Source of the DNA: Limisphaerales bacterium
GTDB taxonomy: Bacteria > Verrucomicrobiota > Verrucomicrobiia > Limisphaerales > AAA164-E04
Direction: 5' to 3'
Assembly: GCA_024761205.1 (NCBI GenBank)
Contig: JAMASS010000006.1
Span: 1-64,000 of the forward strand
DNA: 64,000 bases
The first letter of the stretch is position 1; each line of letters starts with the position of its first letter. The notes beneath the pieces were generated by a model. The model ran no database searches, was not told the DNA's origin, and saw only the letters and a program-made list of their open reading frames with translations. The translations under genes were made by a program, and so were the position numbers. This document shows, piece by piece, positions 19,973-38,084 of this stretch.

Positions 19973-20452
19973 CTAGCCCTCGCCTTTCTTCATCTGCTGA
20001 GCGAGGTAGTTCTCGACACCCATCATCTTGATTAGCTCGAGCTGCGCTTCCGCCCAATCGATACTCTCCTCGGATTCTGCCACCATGCGTTCCATCAGCT
20101 CACGACTACCGGAGTCTTTGAGTTCGATGCAGAGTTGAATGCCCTCATTGTAAGTTGCAACGCCTTTGGTCTCCAACGCCAGACTGTTCTCGATCTGTTC
20201 TTTAGGTGTTGGTCCCACCTTGATCACATCGTAACGGGCAATCTCGGGGACCCCTTCAAGGTAAAGGACTCGAGAGATCACCTCCTCGGCATGCTTCATC
20301 TCCTCGATGGATTCCTTGTAAAAATGGTCTGCCAACCGATCGAGCCCCCAATTCGCGCACATTTTGGACTGAACAAAGTATTGGTTGATCGCCGTCAACT
20401 CAATGGTGAGCCCGGCATTCAGGGCTTCGATGACTTGGTCGTTTCCTTTCAT
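19973..20452 (-). CDS. bfr: Bacterioferritin with incomplete ferroxidase site
   Basis: About 159 residues match bacterioferritin, the 24-subunit haem-containing iron store, from MKGNDQVIEALNAGL to the C-terminus. The haem ligand Met and the Glu/His pair of the ferroxidase centre are present in YKESIEEMKHAEE, and the first Glu is in LTIELTAINQYF. The fourth-helix segment usually reads DEEGHIDW. Here it is AESEESIDW, which places Ser at both the Glu127 and His130 positions (E. coli numbering). Two iron ligands are therefore lost. The ATG at 20452 is chosen because it matches the E. coli start; a frame from 20461 adds three residues. It is preceded on the same strand by a Bfd-like gene. Confidence 0.92.
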   Translation of the reverse strand: MKGNDQVIEALNAGLTIELTAINQYFVQSKMCANWGLDRLADHFYKESIEEMKHAEEVISRVLYLEGVPEIARYDVIKVGPTPKEQIENSLALETKGVATYNEGIQLCIELKDSGSRELMERMVAESEESIDWAEAQLELIKMMGVENYLAQQMKKGEG

Positions 20453-20605: not shown

Positions 20606-20899
20606 TCATGCGACAAGGCTTCGGCAAGTACAAAGTCGTTGAATCAAACCACAGCCGTTGCAGAATCCACAGGGGCCACACCCAACCGGCAGACCAAGCA
20701 ACATCCGTTGTAACCGGCATTGGCACGCTCCACAACCGGCGCCCGCACCAGTTACCTGCTTGAGCGATTCCATCGAAATTCCAGCCCCGCTATCGATAGC
20801 CGCCCGAATTGTCGAAGCCGGCACATCATTGCAATAACAAATACAGACATCTTTCTGCGCCTGCGATGGCTCTGAACTTCCTGCAGCAACAACGATCAT
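20606..20899 (-). CDS. bfd: Bfd-like [2Fe-2S] protein with Cys-rich C-terminal extension
   Basis: Residues 18-65 form a BFD-type [2Fe-2S] domain. CYCNDV gives two ligands (Cys21, Cys23) and GAGCGACQC gives the others (Cys56, Cys59). Bacterioferritin-associated ferredoxin reduces the core of Bfr to free iron, and bfr lies just downstream. The protein is unusual: it has about 97 residues instead of about 64. Its tail has CGPCGFCNGC (C-x2-C-x2-C-x2-C at 74-83) plus CTC at 90-92. The start at 20899 is chosen because a Fur-like palindrome lies at 20948-20966; starts at 20944 or 20971 are possible. About 150 bases separate it from bfr. Confidence 0.75.
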   Translation of the reverse strand: MIVVAAGSSEPSQAQKDVCICYCNDVPASTIRAAIDSGAGISMESLKQVTGAGAGCGACQCRLQRMLLGLPVGCGPCGFCNGCGLIQRLCTCRSLVA

Positions 20900-20947: not shown

Positions 20948-20966
20948 ATTGAGAATGAGTCTCAAT
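20948..20966. promoter_or_regulatory. Fur-box-like palindrome between bfd and the prepilin gene
   Basis: ATTGAGA and TCTCAAT face each other across ATGAG, the 7-x-7 core of Fur operators. It lies about 50 bases before the bfd start on one side and about 150 bases before the prepilin gene (21113) on the other. Iron control of bfd-bfr fits the family; control of the plus-strand genes is possible. Palindromes of the same type precede the dead TonB receptor at 35905. Confidence 0.65.
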
Positions 20967-29405: not shown

Positions 29406-30913
29406 AAGAAGCACAAAGGAGCATTGCCGAGCATCGCGACGACGCGGGTGACGGGAAATGGCTAGAAACACTCACGCGCGACCTTGCACCGCACCTGCTC
29501 GAATGGCAGATCGAACAGGCATGGACATGGGCGCAATGGCCTGACCGCGTCAAGATATTCGGCAAGGACTCGCGGCCTGATGACGACGGCATCGACCTGG
29601 TGGCGAGGCGCAAGGATGGCGGGCTGGTTGCCATCCAGTGCAAGGCGCGCGGCCTGACCGCGGAGGGACGAGAGGGCACGGTCACGGGAGGCGACGTCAA
29701 AGATTTCATCATAGCCACCGACAACCCGGTATGGGCTGAGAGATGGATGGTGACAACAGCGCCTCCGAGCGACCATGTGCGCCAAAAGCTCGGAGCGCTA
29801 GCAGACCCAGGAAAGCGAATTAAGTGGGTAATAATTTCCGAGGCTGTCGGACGCGAACAGGAGCGCCGCAAGCAGGAGCGCCGCAAGCAGGAGCGCCGCA
29901 AGCAAGAAGCGGAGCAGGCGTCGGATCCGAGAACTGCAATGCAGGACAAGGCGATTGAGGCAACGCTTAACACGCTTGAATCGCTCCGAGGCGAAAAACA
30001 TAAAGGCTGGGAGGAAGACGAAAGCCGAGGGAAGACCATAATGCCCTGCGGTACGGGGAAAACCCGAGTCGGTTATGAAGTATCTCAACGAATGGCACAG
30101 GACGAGCTTACCGTTATCATGGCTCCAAGCATCGGCTTGGTTCGCCAACTCCGCTTTGCCTGGCTTGATCGAGCTGAGCGCAGTGGGGAACAACTTGATC
30201 CTCTGTGCGTCTGTTCCGACCGAGATGTCGCCAGAGACTCTGCTATGAAAAGGTCGGAGGAAGAGGCTAGAGCGTCTGCTGATCCACGGGGATACGATGA
30301 CCCCACCGAGGACTGGGGCCTCATTAGCGCTTCCGAGGTTGTGGGCGAAGTCGAAGGGGACAGCGAAGGCATCCAGCGGTGGCTTGAGGGCGCGGAGAAA
30401 CGTCCTGGCCGTTCCGTCATTTTTTCAACCTACCAGTCAGGGCACCAGACAGCAAAGGCCCTCCGCGATAGCAACAAGCGCGCAGCCCTGCTCATTTGCG
30501 ACGAAGCGCATCGCACAGCGGGCATCAGAAAGGTGAAGGGCAAGAAGCTCGGCGAGAAGATACGTTCGTTCACGATATGCCACCGGAGCAAGGAATTTCC
30601 GGCCCGGACCCGGCTCTACATGACAGCTACCCCTCGCATCTATTCACGGGAGGAGGCGAAAAAGAAACACCCTGATTACGAAGTCTTTACGATGGACGAC
30701 GAGGCCACCTTCGGGGCGGAGTGCTACCGGCTTTCATACAGGGATGCGGTTCAGGAGGGGTACATCAGTGATTACCGGATCATCGCCCGTGATGGTGCCG
30801 GCCAGCGGGCACGCTTTGGCGGACAAAAACGCCGCCGATACCCCCGGCGCCACCACCAGCATGAACATCAGGAAACTGGCCTACGCAATGGCTATTGGGG
30901 GTATGGTCCCTAA
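29396..30913 (+). CDS. Type ISP-like restriction enzyme: Mrr-like nuclease and first helicase lobe
   Basis: This is the N-terminal part of a single-chain restriction-modification enzyme that continues at 30744-34451 in the next frame. Residues 60-90 hold an Mrr-type PD-(D/E)xK nuclease: Asp in DDGIDLVARR and QCK in LVAIQCKARG. A Lys/Arg-rich linker with three ERRKQ units follows. The SF2 helicase lobe has Walker A MPCGTGKTRV, DEAH motif ICDEAHR and motif III MTATPR. In LlaGI and LlaBIII such enzymes cut DNA after translocation. The true frame is left near 30790-30830, after ISDYRIIAR. The ATG at 29396 or 29372 lies within the sigma-factor remnant, so the native start is uncertain. No long antisense gene competes. 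Confidence 0.8.
   Translation: MDLEEAQRSIAEHRDDAGDGKWLETLTRDLAPHLLEWQIEQAWTWAQWPDRVKIFGKDSRPDDDGIDLVARRKDGGLVAIQCKARGLTAEGREGTVTGGDVKDFIIATDNPVWAERWMVTTAPPSDHVRQKLGALADPGKRIKWVIISEAVGREQERRKQERRKQERRKQEAEQASDPRTAMQDKAIEATLNTLESLRGEKHKGWEEDESRGKTIMPCGTGKTRVGYEVSQRMAQDELTVIMAPSIGLVRQLRFAWLDRAERSGEQLDPLCVCSDRDVARDSAMKRSEEEARASADPRGYDDPTEDWGLISASEVVGEVEGDSEGIQRWLEGAEKRPGRSVIFSTYQSGHQTAKALRDSNKRAALLICDEAHRTAGIRKVKGKKLGEKIRSFTICHRSKEFPARTRLYMTATPRIYSREEAKKKHPDYEVFTMDDEATFGAECYRLSYRDAVQEGYISDYRIIARDGAGQRARFGGQKRRRYPRRHHQHEHQETGLRNGYWGYGP
29861..29905 (+). repeat. Three 15-bp tandem repeats in the nuclease-helicase linker
   Basis: GAGCGCCGCAAGCAG occurs at 29861 and 29876, and with one change at 29891. 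Each unit encodes ERRKQ. Because the unit is a multiple of three, copy-number change would alter linker length without breaking the frame. Confidence 0.9.
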
Positions 30914-33900
30914 CCCTGAAGGCGAGGGGCAATTAACCATTCGTTCAAGTATTGCGTTCTGTAATCGCATTGATCGCTCGAAAAGTATGGCTGATGAGAT
31001 TGCTGGCAAGCCGGTGAGGGGTTGGCTTCAAAAACTGGCTCGGAGCGAAGGTGTGCAAGTTAAGCAATATCGCGTCGAACATAGAGATTCGTCAGACAGT
31101 ACGTCAAAACGGGAGGAGGCTCTGCAGGGGCTGCGTGAGGCGACAGACGAACATCCCTTCGGGGTGAGCAATGTCGGGATTTTCGGCGAAGGGATTGACA
31201 CGCCTGCGCTCAACGCCATCGCATTCATTGACGCGCGCAAATCTCCGGTGGACGTTATTCAGGCGGTCGGGCGCGTCATGCGGCGAAGCCCGGACAAGGA
31301 TATAGGCTATGTGATCGTTCCACTGACAATACCTCACGGGCAGTATGCAGAGGCGTGGTTGGAAAGCTGCGAGAACACCGAGGGGTGGAATGAGTTAGGA
31401 CAGATATTGAATGCCTTGCGCGCACATGATGGGCGCATTGAAGACCGGCTCAAAGACCTGATGCACATCGCTGTCCCGTCGCAAGCTGAGATAGCAGATC
31501 AGTTGGTCATCACGCGGGACGAGGAAGGCGAACACGCGGACATCTGGCAAGGCCCCATGAACAAACTTGAAGATGTCGTGGCCGATGTCAGAAAAGGGTC
31601 TTCATCTCGTGAACGGCTGCGAGAGTCTGGAGAACTCAAACCCGCAACCGGAAACATCCAGGCACCCCCCGCCGGGACATATATCGTGGACGACAGACGC
31701 CCAACACAACCGCTAATTGCGCCAGTGAACACAAAAGATAAGTGGAAACTCGGGAAAGATGGCTACTCGACGCAGCCCGCAGTAGAACGCGCGAAAGAGA
31801 TATTCAAGGAGGAGATGCGCAAGCCGGGTCTGGAACGACGAAGGCTGCGCCCCCCAAGAAGGCTGACGAGCGAGGAAGGCAAGCCTGACCGAGTCACACA
31901 GAAGTCACTGCAATTCCTGTACTCGCTCAAAGAAGATAATCCGCAAGCGGAGGCCATCCGGGTGAATGTACTCAAACGGTCGGGCTTGCTGAACGGTCCG
32001 GAGCGCGATTTCAATATACTGCGTGAGACCGTGGAAGCCGCCGCTGCCTTGTTGAGAGAGGACGACCTTGAAGCCGATCTCAAGGCGCAATTAGAGATGC
32101 AGCACATGGCGAACGATGGGAGTAAAAGAGCAGACGCCTGCACCGTGACAGCGTTGTTGCTGATGACTGCATCTATCGTCCATGCTCGGATAGCTTCGGC
32201 GGGAGGCTTGAAGGGGAGCAAGGCCCCGACGCTTGAGATAATTTCCGGGCACAGGACACCAGCAGAAGCGTTGATGTTGGCTTGGAACGATATCTTGGAT
32301 ACGGACTATCAGCCGGTATTCAGGATTGCCCGCAACCTGCTTCTGCATCTGACTCGATATGTGCGCAAGACCGCCGCGCTCAATGAGGCGATACGAAGGA
32401 TCGCCAAGGATGCGGTGGATATCGCCGACACATACGCCACGATGGGCATGGACCATGCCGGAGTGCTTTTCAATAAGGTCATGGGAGACCAAGCTGCCGA
32501 CGGCGCCTACTTCACACGTCCGGTTGCCGCAGTGCTGTTGGCGGAACTCGCCATGCACGCATGCGAGGAAACCGAATGGGACAGGGGCGAGACTTGGCGC
32601 AAGGCAAAGGCGATGGATCCGGCCTGTGGCAGCGGAACCCTGCTCATAGCGTGGATTGCCGCCATGAAACGCCGGGCGCTCCGCGACGGGGCGACGGAGG
32701 GCGTGCTCGCCAAACTGCACAAGTATGCTGTTGAGGATGGTGTCGTTGGCTTGGACATCAACCCTGTGTCTCTTCAACTCGCCGGCGCGCAACTCACCAT
32801 CGGCGACCTGAGCGCCCGCTACAAGAATATGGGTTTGTGGCAGATGCCTTACGGTTACAACGACAACGACAACACTGAAGAACCGGCAAATGCGGGGTCG
32901 CTTGAACTGCTCACAGACGACAGGGTTGTCGGCAAGCCGGCGAAGTATGACTCGCAGGGGCAGGGTGGGTTTGAGTTCGAGGGGGAGCGGACCTACAAGG
33001 ACAAGGCAAAGGGCGTGCGCATCGCGCTGCGTGAGGACGAACCGAAGGCACATGATGGGAAGGTTCATGATGTTGTCAATGATGTCTTGGGACGCAGGGT
33101 GGCATTGATGAACCCGCCCTTCGTCACCCGAGACAAGCTCGGGTCGAAGTTCGAGCAAGATCAGCAGGTGGCTGTGCGCAAGCGCATCGACGGAGCCCAA
33201 GCGATCCTGGAAGCCGCGGATCCGGCGATGCGGGGCATGGCGGAAAAAACCACGACGAGGCCGCTCTATGTCGCGCTGGGGCTCAAATGCATCGACCAAG
33301 AAGAAGGGGTTCTAGGGATGGTCATCCCGACCGCGGGCCTGCTCACCCCGAGCGGATTGCGCGAGCGGCAGATACTCGCTGAGCGATTGCACATCAGATA
33401 TGTATTGACCTGCCACGAGCCCGGAAACGTCAACATGAGCCAGAGTACAGGCGTGAACGAAAGCCTGGTGATCGGTACACGGAAGGGACGAGCCGAGGGT
33501 CGCCCGACATGTTTTGTCAGCCTTGACCGTCTTCCTCGCAACATGGAAGAGGCGGTCGCCGTCGCAGAAGCCATCGCGAGCGGAAAGCAAATCCCGGAAG
33601 GGCGGACAAAGGAGGTCCGCACCGAGCGGATGACGGCAGGGGACTGGAGCGCCGCGGGATGGCGGGATCTGACGCTGGACGACGCCGTCGAGGAGATTCT
33701 CGAGTGGGGATGTCTGGTCGCGATGCGCGGGGTGCCAAGAGTAACCATAAAGGCACCCGGGCACGGGGCGCTTGTGGGACACCAAGGGACGGGGGCAGCG
33801 CGACATGTACTCAACTCGAAGGCCGCGAACGGACAAATGCGGATCGAAGGGCGTCCCGACTCAGCCATGCGCCTGAAACCGAACGAAAGCGAGACGGAAA

Positions 33901-34451
33901 ACGATCGGGAGGCGCGAGAGGAGCGGTTATGGAGGCAATGGACGAATGAGGTAGCGAGCCATCTGCTCATAAACTCGGGACAAAGAACGCAAACGGGGCG
34001 GCTGAGCGCAGTCGCACAGGAAAGTAAAGAGCTCGGGATGACGTGGAAGCCAGTACAGGGACTGACTCAAGAGCAGGCAAAGGCATGGGCGGTCTGGTTG
34101 AACAGTACACCGGGACGACTCATGACCCTGATCCATCGAGGCAAAAGCTTGGACTTCGTGGTCTACCGGCCAAAAGGGTTGCTACAGATCCGCGTCCCGC
34201 GACTGGACAACCCAAAGACCATTCGGCGGTTGGCGCGAGCATGGGAAGAAACTCGAAATATGGACGTTCCGCAGTACCGGGATGGATACACGCCGGTTCG
34301 GCAAGCGTGGGACATTGCCGTCTGCGAAGCCTTGGATGAAGCAGAAATCGGGAAGGTGCGAGAATGGGCAGACAAGCTGAACCGGGAACCCTCCATCAGC
34401 CTGGAAGGGTTCTTCGGGGAACAAGAGGGGAAGGAAGACGCACAAACGTAA
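30744..34451 (+). CDS. Type ISP-like restriction enzyme: second helicase lobe, N6-adenine methyltransferase and target recognition
   Basis: True homology starts near 30795 (ADKNAADTPGATTSMNIRKL). The second RecA lobe has GIFGEGIDTPALNAIAFIDA and QAVGRVMRRSP, helicase motifs V and VI. A helical coupler follows. The methyltransferase has motif I MDPACGSGTLLIAW and the catalytic NPPF in VALMNPPFVTRD, the gamma-class adenine-N6 pattern. The last 400 residues, including MTWKPVQGLTQEQAKAWAVW and a basic end, should hold the target recognition domain. Together with the upstream part the enzyme would be about 1,680 residues, a little longer than LlaGI. A single extra base near 30790-30830 separates the two frames, close to CAAAAAC. 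If real, nuclease-helicase and methylase are uncoupled. Confidence 0.83.
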   Translation: MRFRRGTSVITGSSPVMVPASGHALADKNAADTPGATTSMNIRKLAYAMAIGGMVPNPEGEGQLTIRSSIAFCNRIDRSKSMADEIAGKPVRGWLQKLARSEGVQVKQYRVEHRDSSDSTSKREEALQGLREATDEHPFGVSNVGIFGEGIDTPALNAIAFIDARKSPVDVIQAVGRVMRRSPDKDIGYVIVPLTIPHGQYAEAWLESCENTEGWNELGQILNALRAHDGRIEDRLKDLMHIAVPSQAEIADQLVITRDEEGEHADIWQGPMNKLEDVVADVRKGSSSRERLRESGELKPATGNIQAPPAGTYIVDDRRPTQPLIAPVNTKDKWKLGKDGYSTQPAVERAKEIFKEEMRKPGLERRRLRPPRRLTSEEGKPDRVTQKSLQFLYSLKEDNPQAEAIRVNVLKRSGLLNGPERDFNILRETVEAAAALLREDDLEADLKAQLEMQHMANDGSKRADACTVTALLLMTASIVHARIASAGGLKGSKAPTLEIISGHRTPAEALMLAWNDILDTDYQPVFRIARNLLLHLTRYVRKTAALNEAIRRIAKDAVDIADTYATMGMDHAGVLFNKVMGDQAADGAYFTRPVAAVLLAELAMHACEETEWDRGETWRKAKAMDPACGSGTLLIAWIAAMKRRALRDGATEGVLAKLHKYAVEDGVVGLDINPVSLQLAGAQLTIGDLSARYKNMGLWQMPYGYNDNDNTEEPANAGSLELLTDDRVVGKPAKYDSQGQGGFEFEGERTYKDKAKGVRIALREDEPKAHDGKVHDVVNDVLGRRVALMNPPFVTRDKLGSKFEQDQQVAVRKRIDGAQAILEAADPAMRGMAEKTTTRPLYVALGLKCIDQEEGVLGMVIPTAGLLTPSGLRERQILAERLHIRYVLTCHEPGNVNMSQSTGVNESLVIGTRKGRAEGRPTCFVSLDRLPRNMEEAVAVAEAIASGKQIPEGRTKEVRTERMTAGDWSAAGWRDLTLDDAVEEILEWGCLVAMRGVPRVTIKAPGHGALVGHQGTGAARHVLNSKAANGQMRIEGRPDSAMRLKPNESETENDREAREERLWRQWTNEVASHLLINSGQRTQTGRLSAVAQESKELGMTWKPVQGLTQEQAKAWAVWLNSTPGRLMTLIHRGKSLDFVVYRPKGLLQIRVPRLDNPKTIRRLARAWEETRNMDVPQYRDGYTPVRQAWDIAVCEALDEAEIGKVREWADKLNREPSISLEGFFGEQEGKEDAQT

Positions 34452-35835: not shown

Positions 35836-35839
35836 AATC

Positions 35840-35889
35840 GAGACTCAGTCTCATTAGAACTGTCTTCGTTTTTTGAGACTGAGTTTCAA
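35840..35889. promoter_or_regulatory. Two Fur-box-like palindromes in tandem
   Basis: GAGACT-C-AGTCTC spans 35840-35852 (perfect). TTGAGACT-G-AGTTTCAA spans 35873-35889 (one mismatch). They end 16 bases before the ATG of the TonB receptor relic at 35905. Their half-sites resemble the palindrome at 20948-20966. Iron repression of the former receptor is the obvious reading. Confidence 0.65.
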
Positions 35890-35904: not shown

Positions 35905-37063
35905 ATGAGGAAATTGATTCGAAAAGCGGGTTGGTTGCGCCATTCCTCGCCGTGGTTCTGGTGTCCTGTGCAGTGAGCCGAATTTACCACATCCAAGCTC
36001 AAAAGGCTGAGTCTTCGGACGCCGGCCCTGGCAGCGAGTTGATATTGTTGCCCGAAGTAACCCTAATCGGTTTTGAGGCCACCGAGCAAAAGTTGCCGGC
36101 TTCTGGGGCCTATATCGGAGAGGAGGTATTGCGTCGGGTATCTCAATGCAGATGTCAATCGAGTTCTCCGACAGGTCGCAGGTGCTCACGTCTGCAAGGA
36201 AGATGGCATGAGATTGTTCCCGAATATCAGCGTTCTTGGGGCCAACACCGAGCGGAGCAAGGCCGTGTCCATCATGGGGGATGGCATCTTGAGGGGGAGA
36301 CCTCATGGAGTTTTGGGCTTGGGAGCCGTTACACGAAACCGGATTGTGGCTTGATCGCAGAAGATGTCCTGTTTCGGACGGATTTTGACAACCTAAGCGT
36401 TGGTGTGAATCTAGGCGGAGGGAGGACGGAAATGACGGAGAATATTGGAGCATCAATTCGATGAGGCGCGAACTGATGGTGAGCTACGGTCATGGGCAAG
36501 CCCAAGAATGGGCGTTCCGTACACCAGCGCGTCTGTCGCCAACCCTAATGAATGCTGAGTTGGGCGGGAATGCTCGGAATACCGATCCAGAGTCCTTGTT
36601 TGAAGGCGGTGTCGATGGAGCGAAGGTGCCATACATTCCTGAATACCAGATCAATGGGGAGGTAGGAATCGAGTTTGGCAAGGTCGGCACTTACACCAGT
36701 ATGGTTGTACCGCCAATGTTCACAAGCGCAAGTAACACCAGCGTCAATGCGCGCGCTGATGGGGTACCGGACGCCCGAGCCGGCGAACTCAGTAGTTACT
36801 TCATTAACGATCTTTCAATTCGTTATCAGCTCCCGGGCTTCCTTGATTCTTCAACGCGGGTGTTGATATCTATTTCTGAAATGGCGTGCCTCCTCTTCAC
36901 TTTTTTCAGTGGTGGGGAACTCGGCTCTTGGAACCGGGCTCCTTGCTCATGTCTAAAGATCGAGAGTCTCTGTTCGTGCGATTCGGCCCTTTTGTGGGCG
37001 TCTGCGACACGCAAGAGAGCTAGATGCGTGGACTGGATAAAAGTGGACGCTCTACCCTTATAA
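35905..37063 (+). pseudogene. TonB-dependent (FecA-like) receptor relic
   Basis: Behind the Fur-like sites the gene starts MRKLIRKAGWL, then breaks into frames. One frame has LLPEVTLIGFEATEQKLPAS and AYIGEEVLRR. The next has YLNADVNRVLRQVAGAHVCK and GLFPNIS-like LFPNISVLGA: the TonB-box/plug region of ferric-citrate-type receptors. The barrel middle is missing. The end returns as WAFRTPARLSPTLMNAELGG, VPYIPEYQINGEVGIEF and INDLSIRYQLPGF. The usual receptor has about 700 codons; fewer than 390 remain, with several frameshifts. Confidence 0.8.
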
Positions 37064-37109: not shown

Positions 37110-38084
37110 ATGGTGATGAGCGGTAAGAGTGCATCTGCTAACCAGCCCCAAGCCGATGGGGTTGGCCGTGCCGGTGTGGCGAGAACTGCGCATCGGCTGG
37201 GTGCGGCGGTGCCGGGACGAACCGCCCTTTTCGGAGATCGGTCTCAGACAGGCTTTGCTTTTGATTGGTTTGATTTCGAAGGCGACAGTCGGGAGCGTGA
37301 GGATTGCCACTGCACGGGAGATCACCTCGAGGTATGCTTTAATCTTAAGGGAAGCGGAGAGCTTCTTTGTGAGGGACGTCGAGCCGAGTTTGATGCCGGC
37401 AATATCTGGTTTGCTTTTTGCAGTCAGGCAGCCGTCGAGATGTTGCGGCGGCCACGCAACCGTCATCAGTTCCTTACCCTTGATTTTTCGATCGATTTCC
37501 TATCCAACAATCTTCCCATCGAGAGCGGGAACCTGCATCCGGTGGTGCAACAAGCTGTTCGAAATCGGCAGCAAGGGTCTGTTGTAAGTGAAGTCCACAG
37601 ACTTTCATCTGTCATCCGAGGGTGGGTGGACAACGTCCGGAAGCCACCAGTGCTGACGGCGGCGCTGCCTTTGTGGTATCGGGCCAAGGCACTCGAATTG
37701 GCCTGTTGCCTCCTGTTTATTGCTCCCAAAGAAGAGTTGTTCTGTCATCGGCAACAACGGCTGGCCGATGAGCGGGCAGCCCAAGTGAAGCGGTTGCTGA
37801 TAGAGAATCTAACAGAGCCACCGAGTTTAAAGGAATTGGGGCGCCGGGTCGGGTGTAGTCCCTACTATTTGAGCCGAACGTTTTCGCAGGAGGTAGGAAT
37901 GACCATTCCCCAGTATCTGCGACAGATCCGCATCGAGAGGGCAGCTGAGCTCCTTCGTGAAGGGAAATTTAATGTCACGGAAGTGGCCCTCGAGGTGGGC
38001 TATAATAGCATCAGTCACTTTAGCCAGGCATTCTGCCAAACGATGGGGTGTTGTCCGGCGATATATCCAGTGAAAGAGCGTTAG
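37110..38084 (+). CDS. AraC-family transcriptional regulator
   Basis: This 324-residue protein ends in the double helix-turn-helix DNA-binding domain of AraC/XylS regulators: PPSLKELGRRVGCSPYYLSR, then VTEVALEVGYNSISHFSQAF. The N-terminal 200 residues have CHCTGDHLEVCFNLKGSGEL and FDAGNIWFAF, like the sensor part of siderophore-responsive members such as PchR. Its place just behind an iron-regulated TonB receptor fits that group, where the regulator switches on the receptor when the siderophore arrives. The receptor is dead, so the regulator is left without its evident target. No good ribosome site precedes the ATG at 37110; the start may lie a few codons away. Confidence 0.88.
   Translation: MVMSGKSASANQPQADGVGRAGVARTAHRLGAAVPGRTALFGDRSQTGFAFDWFDFEGDSREREDCHCTGDHLEVCFNLKGSGELLCEGRRAEFDAGNIWFAFCSQAAVEMLRRPRNRHQFLTLDFSIDFLSNNLPIESGNLHPVVQQAVRNRQQGSVVSEVHRLSSVIRGWVDNVRKPPVLTAALPLWYRAKALELACCLLFIAPKEELFCHRQQRLADERAAQVKRLLIENLTEPPSLKELGRRVGCSPYYLSRTFSQEVGMTIPQYLRQIRIERAAELLREGKFNVTEVALEVGYNSISHFSQAFCQTMGCCPAIYPVKER

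Follow-up and report, generated by a model that had tools for sequence, protein, structure and literature searches.

The window analysed here, a 64,000-nucleotide stretch of contig JAMASS010000006.1 from a Limisphaerales bacterium, carries a two-gene operon in which a Bfd-like ferredoxin with a cysteine-rich C-terminal tail is followed by a bacterioferritin (Bfr) with an altered ferroxidase centre (Table 1). Judged by sequence comparison, this bfd-bfr operon represents a modified form of the iron-release pair already known for bacterioferritin, and it is real across a group of Verrucomicrobiota. The tail is a conserved feature of the ferredoxin family. As a working model, in which we place about even confidence, the locus would be an iron-release operon controlled by Fur, with a ferredoxin that carries a second, four-cysteine metal site and a Bfr that is biased towards release.

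Table 1. Features of the bfd-bfr operon, with positions in the window
Feature	Position	Strand	Basis
bfd-like gene with cysteine-rich tail (P0001), 97 aa	20606..20899	minus	ATG at 20899, stop ends at 20606; Pfam PF04324 5.7e-11
Fer2_BFD domain, residues 20-67, ligands C21, C23, C56, C59	20699..20842	minus	Pfam, four cysteines in 19/19 sequences, fold of the L010 model
Cysteine-rich tail, residues 74-92, invariant C80, C83, C90, C92	20624..20680	minus	Conservation, pN/pS 0.28
Palindromic operator TTGAGACTCATTCTCAA, probable Fur box	20949..20965		Related site in 17/17 bfd-first loci
Bacterioferritin gene (P0002), 159 aa, second operon gene	19973..20452	minus	TIGR00754 183.2 bits, cut-off 125.55
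bfr codons 127-130, Ser127 and Ser130 for ferroxidase ligands Glu127 and His130	20063..20074	minus	Sequence comparison; ligands as in PMC7762939

The ferredoxin of the window contains 12 cysteines (C19, C21, C23, C56, C59, C61, C74, C77, C80, C83, C90 and C92). Fer2_BFD (Pfam PF04324) matches residues 20-67 at 43 bits against a curated cut-off of 26, and this is the single PF04324 match in the window assembly (95.1% complete). The NCBIfam equivalog for Bfd, PRK10509, reaches 23 bits and stays below its cut-off of 75. The cluster-ligand pattern, C-x-C plus C-x2-C (C21, C23, C56, C59), is present in all 19 full-length sequences compared, those of the window and 18 Verrucomicrobiota relatives, which together with the Fer2_BFD match bears out an earlier sequence-only reading that four of the cysteines fit the Bfd [2Fe-2S] site. 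The start codon is consistent with the family and lies 50 nt from the operator core. With the Bfd proteins of P. aeruginosa (6e6r/4e6k) and E. coli (PRK10509) the tailed ferredoxin shares the Fer2_BFD domain, the C-x-C...C-x2-C ligands and a gene position beside bfr. It differs from them in about 17 extra N-terminal residues and in the C-terminal tail, which holds four invariant and usually six cysteines, to which C61 is added.

On its predicted structure, the relative L010 has the Bfd fold. The L010 model has a mean pLDDT of 79, with four of the five blocks in residues 21-70 above 90, and its first Foldseek row is P. aeruginosa Bfd 6e6r (probability 1.00, TM 0.81 by target, E 0.015), to which it aligns with a Z of 7.4 over 52 residues and an rmsd of 1.6. 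The model of the window ferredoxin is poorer (mean pLDDT 68), and 6e6r is missing from its structure-search rows. In the window model the residue blocks 71-80, 81-90 and 91 to the end average 64, 67 and 51, and in the L010 model they average 77, 79 and 65, the tail having in both the lowest confidence apart from the N-terminus. None of the VIA structure rows for these two models passes model residue 71, so none extends into the tail; the Foldseek rows carry no ranges.

The 19 sequences leave out a gene cut at a contig end (L026/G444), one gene with an N gap and an intact tail (L006/L044/L075) and copies of a single contig listed again under G handles; they are largely the same genes as those of the 18 genomes of the order with a tailed Bfd (below) and are no independent samples of them. 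Eight cysteines are invariant in all 19, namely the four Bfd ligands and C80, C83, C90 and C92 of the tail. The spacing of this tail core, C-x2-C-G-x5-C-x-C (C80-x2-C83-G, C90-x-C92), is invariant as well. C61 and C74 occur in 18 of the sequences and C77 in 16. L024 has lost all three and is left with only the four tail cysteines; L022 and L025 lack C77 and have a cysteine aligned with residue 85 of the window protein. Of the eight extra cysteines first pointed out in the window protein, seven are family features, four of them invariant, but C19 is private to the window genome. Likewise, the C-x2-C-x2-C-x2-C motif initially described is present in the window (C-G-P-C-G-F-C-N-G-C, then C-T-C), but the conserved core is C-x2-C-G with a downstream C-x-C, and the first C-x2-C pair is lost or shifted in 3/19 sequences.

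Estimates of pN/pS, which are rough, with synonymous differences near saturation, come to 0.28 for both tail and linker, 0.39 for the Bfd domain and 0.68 for the N-terminus. The presence of the tail in 19/19 sequences and its pN/pS rule out a frameshift or a chance ORF as its origin. The two findings that had been named as counting against the tail, relatives without it and a frameshift that creates it, were looked for; the relatives carry the tail and there is no frameshift. When the bases of the bfd ORF were shuffled, 12 cysteines were reached in 14 of 20,000 shuffles, and we count the conservation of the cysteines as the stronger argument for the tail being real.

The tail has no family match above cut-off in Pfam or NCBIfam, neither to a rubredoxin nor to a ferredoxin family. 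A match to Agouti, an animal cysteine-rich family (E 0.027 for the window, 0.0085 and 0.0038 for relatives), is below cut-off and was set aside as cysteine composition; the tails alone of four relatives, run against Pfam, gave Agouti rows only, in two of them and again below cut-off. Two PDB profile rows that extend into the tail, MSMEG_4306 (5y05, E 0.063) and 1wig (E 0.37), the latter presumably a LIM domain, are not significant.

The invariant cysteines suggest that the tail may bind a metal or a second cluster. It would fold as a compact Cys4 metal knuckle formed by C80-x2-C83-G and C90-x-C92, to which C61, C74 and C77 would add further cysteines that most members retain. Zinc would be the most likely metal, because the Cys4 knuckle is so compact, with iron as a possible one. 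A different view is that the tail is an unstructured, metal-free extension that serves to sense redox state or to tether a partner, as its low confidence in both models could indicate. The invariant core spacing, the purifying selection and the predicted turn argue against such an extension, and metal binding is common among cytosolic proteins that have C-x2-C-G and C-x-C; we regard it as highly improbable.

The tail could also be a second redox centre, a rubredoxin-like Fe(Cys)4 site or a second iron-sulfur cluster, which would turn the ferredoxin into an electron wire with two centres, leading to the heme of a ferroxidase-poor Bfr. A C-x2-C-G turn and two further cysteines, all invariant, would suit such a centre, the six to seven extra cysteines of most members could house a cluster, and the C-x2-C-G turn in the L010 model is flanked by a bridge between residues 79 and 86. 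In Desulfovibrio a rubredoxin is a partner of Bfr. However, L024 has only the four tail cysteines, and the tail matches no rubredoxin or ferredoxin family above cut-off, so this reading is on the unlikely side. A fuller version of it, in which a second redox-active tail centre evolved for a ferroxidase-deficient Bfr whose cage serves iron release or electron transfer and is switched on by iron starvation, we think unlikely.

A further possibility is that the tail is a metal carrier, which takes up Fe2+ (or Zn or Cu) set free at the Bfr surface and passes it on, much as a CopZ-like chaperone fused to a Bfd domain might do. The N-terminal domain of Archaeoglobus CopZ (2hu9) is among the best Foldseek rows, there is a weak NCBIfam row to CopZ_Nterm_CU (E 0.016), and the number of cysteines is variable outside the core of four. 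CopZ joins a Bfd-like [2Fe-2S] domain to another cysteine metal site, which holds zinc, and the tailed ferredoxin may join its Bfd domain to a putative site of this kind. The structure match to 2hu9, however, covers residues 1-68 only and leaves the tail outside, the neighbouring gene is here a bacterioferritin, and no copper genes are seen by eye beside the locus. We consider a carrier quite improbable and keep the Cys4 metal knuckle as the preferred reading of the tail.

The bfr gene follows bfd on the same strand after a gap of 153 bases. Its product resembles the TIGR00754 bacterioferritins (183 bits) and keeps heme ligand Met52 as well as E18, E51, H54 and E94. It differs from them in having serine for E127 and H130, which leaves the full dinuclear ferroxidase centre (E18, E51, H54, E94, E127, H130) incomplete. 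According to PMC7762939, E51 and E127 are bridging ligands, H54 and E18 belong to site A and H130 and E94 to site B; with these roles, the two serines mean the loss of one bridge and one site B ligand. All the Ser/Ser-type Bfr examined retain Met52. Residue 127 is a cysteine in G009 and residue 130 is unread (N) in G422. In a single case (L005/L024) the Bfr has Cys127 for Ser127 and the ferredoxin has lost C61, C74 and C77. In a tree of 37 Bfr sequences, from which incomplete and identical sequences were left out, a branch with a support of only 83/81 separates the Ser/Ser group from the rest; L054 forms a long branch. Residues 68, 81 and 85 of the Bfr docking surface are variable inside the Ser/Ser clade.

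A Bfr without ferroxidase site B would probably be a slow, release-biased store and no fast ferroxidase. Bfd-driven release of iron via the heme is described in PMC7762939 and PMC12363616. In the operon of the window, the [2Fe-2S] cluster of Bfd would take electrons and pass them to the Met52 heme of Bfr, where stored ferric iron would be reduced, and the tail may tune docking to, or electron transfer into, the Ser/Ser Bfr lineage. Alternatively, a mixed-subunit Bfr could have the Ser/Ser protein as its catalytically poor partner, and the ferredoxin would be an ordinary Bfd whose tail is incidental. A mixed Bfr with one subunit devoid of ferroxidase ligands is known from Magnetospirillum (PMC6529640): Bfr2 keeps the heme Met52 and has lost ferroxidase ligands, the changes named being at E18, H54 and H131, and a second subunit supplies the site. 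Unlike Bfr2, the window Bfr keeps E18, E51, H54 and E94, and no second subunit was found. The window assembly (95.1% complete) has one PF00210 match, this Bfr, and no match to PF02915, and a mixed-subunit cage is therefore unlikely in the window genome. Moreover, the 20 genomes of the order with a Ser/Ser-type Bfr have one Bfr each at E 1e-25 except G317, in which both copies are Ser/Ser. We hold the mixed-subunit reading to be extremely improbable and proceed with the release-biased Bfr.

The palindrome upstream of bfd is probably a Fur box. Fur control is suggested by its conservation, by the iron-gene context of related sites and by its resemblance to the Fur consensus. The search pattern was derived from the window site, whose 0 mismatches are thus by construction. 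When TGAGACTCANTCTCA, the consensus built from the loci themselves, is used, all 17 bfd-first loci have a site with at most 3 mismatches (exactly 3 in three of them) located 48-55 nt upstream of bfd, and at most 5 of 200 shuffles per locus were as good. None of 14 Glu/His Bfr genes has a site below 4 mismatches. The bfr-first loci L022 and L025 have no convincing operator, their best sites of 4 mismatches being equalled by 15 and 12 of 200 shuffles. For the detached bfr of G057, no site was seen within 250 nt (5 mismatches), and two perfect copies lie about 240-285 nt upstream.

In five genomes, of which the window's is one, few sites have 1 mismatch or none; G011 has no such site, and control counts were 0 to 1 per strand. 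In G317 such sites have FeoB and a FUR-family gene adjoining a porin as their neighbours; in G057 the neighbours are a ZnuA-type ABC transporter, an NRPS condensation domain, a PKS and an AraC regulator. The ZnuA-type transporter among these genes leaves room for another Fur-family regulator. Under low iron, the lifting of Fur would derepress the operon, and Bfd and Bfr would be made together. According to PMC12363616, E. coli bfd shows Fur-linked down-regulation. In published Bfr-Bfd pairs, according to PMC7762939, Bfd is expressed differentially from bfr, which does not fit the shared operator here.

At 35838-35889 and 35906-37063, two more copies of the operator, each with 1 mismatch to the core, occur directly upstream of short broken frames. 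Neither frame has a Pfam match, and one has a weak TonB-siderophore receptor row (E 0.074); they are presumably a decayed receptor gene, after which comes an AraC regulator (37110-38084). On the plus strand, a 1235-codon frame (30744-34451) appears by eye to join a helicase-like part to a DNA methyltransferase-like part.

The co-occurrence of the tail with the Ser/Ser Bfr, proposed for checking in the sequence-only reading, is seen across the order. Among 320 genomes, 18 have a tailed Bfd, 20 a Ser/Ser-type Bfr and 17 both (Fisher p 3e-24, with kinship ignored). The two genes adjoin in 16 of these 17 and are on separate contigs in G057; in L022 and L025, outside that set, bfr comes first. G317 carries two bfd-bfr operons (L033, L042), both with the tail and a Ser/Ser Bfr. 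Only G444 has a tailed Bfd without Bfr, and the gene runs off the contig end. A Ser/Ser Bfr without a tailed Bfd is found in G425 (at a contig end), G427 and G007. The flanking genes of G427 match those of its relative G011 with bfd absent (L093 2040-2236), and in G007 bfd is absent beside the Ser/Ser bfr and a perfect operator still precedes bfr (L058 2468-3300); these assemblies are 86% and 92% complete, and a bfd copy may lie elsewhere. Because these two assemblies have a Ser/Ser Bfr without bfd, the coupling is not obligate, and the pairing looks dispensable. The pair is patchy: in the window's genus, the three other genomes have neither gene.

E127 and H130 are both present in the Bfr of 7 other genomes of the order and in 7 more from the phylum. 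None of the 7 Glu/His-Bfr genomes of the order has a tailed Bfd. A tail-less Bfd beside a Glu/His Bfr was sought at the 7 loci of the order and at L054 and L055, by tblastn and by the six-frame pattern C-x-C...C-x2-C, and none was found; one weak tblastn row (L097, E 0.006, 28% identity) lacks the ligand pattern. The pattern matches seen in L093 and L094 fall within neighbouring genes, in other reading frames, and were put down to chance. The earlier suggestion that the tail and the Bfr change evolved together finds agreement in the one shared clade but is weakened otherwise, since no tail-less Bfd stands beside the Glu/His Bfr examined and G007 and G427 have no tailed Bfd.

Wider searches place the tail in the Verrucomicrobiota. 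Among 97 relatives, 6 genomes, the window's own counted, have the tail, and 3 further weak matches (E 4e-4 to 9e-4) lie in frames of 692-908 codons. When a named genome collection was first scanned, with just the window protein as query, no relative appeared. A profile scan of it, which used one peptide pattern and would miss members lacking it, gave 21 loci, 17 of them in Verrucomicrobiota MAGs and four in other phyla. Of the 17 MAG loci 16 are whole genes, all with the tail, and L026 is cut at a contig end; the loci from other phyla (L027-L030) have the Bfd domain without the tail. The named tail-bearing matches are titled only Verrucomicrobia, Verrucomicrobiota, Verrucomicrobiia or Verrucomicrobiales bacterium. 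A search of the class (286 genomes) gave matches in 11, of which 8 cover positions 4-74 in frames of 518-971 codons and have no tail. With the family profile, the phylum (288 genomes) yielded matches in 13 further genomes; all of these matches stop at or before model position 75 and lie in open frames of 199-321 codons. The viral contigs and plasmids searched gave no relative.

Among the matches listed from the open-licence literature, a body that leaves subscription papers mostly outside, none deals with a cysteine-tailed Bfd or with a Ser/Ser Bfr in Verrucomicrobiota. For annotation, the tailed Bfd is an undescribed domain architecture, its tail belonging to no Pfam or NCBIfam family above cut-off. 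The Bfr-Bfd pair is the model for bacterial recovery of iron from ferritin. The operon offers a natural pair, in which a tail resembling a metal site is gained, half a ferroxidase centre is lost and no other PF00210 protein is present in the assembly, and with it the uncoupling of iron release from ferroxidase activity becomes testable. If the two-centre reading were true, these bacteria would have a distinct mode of ferritin use in place of O2-driven iron oxidation.
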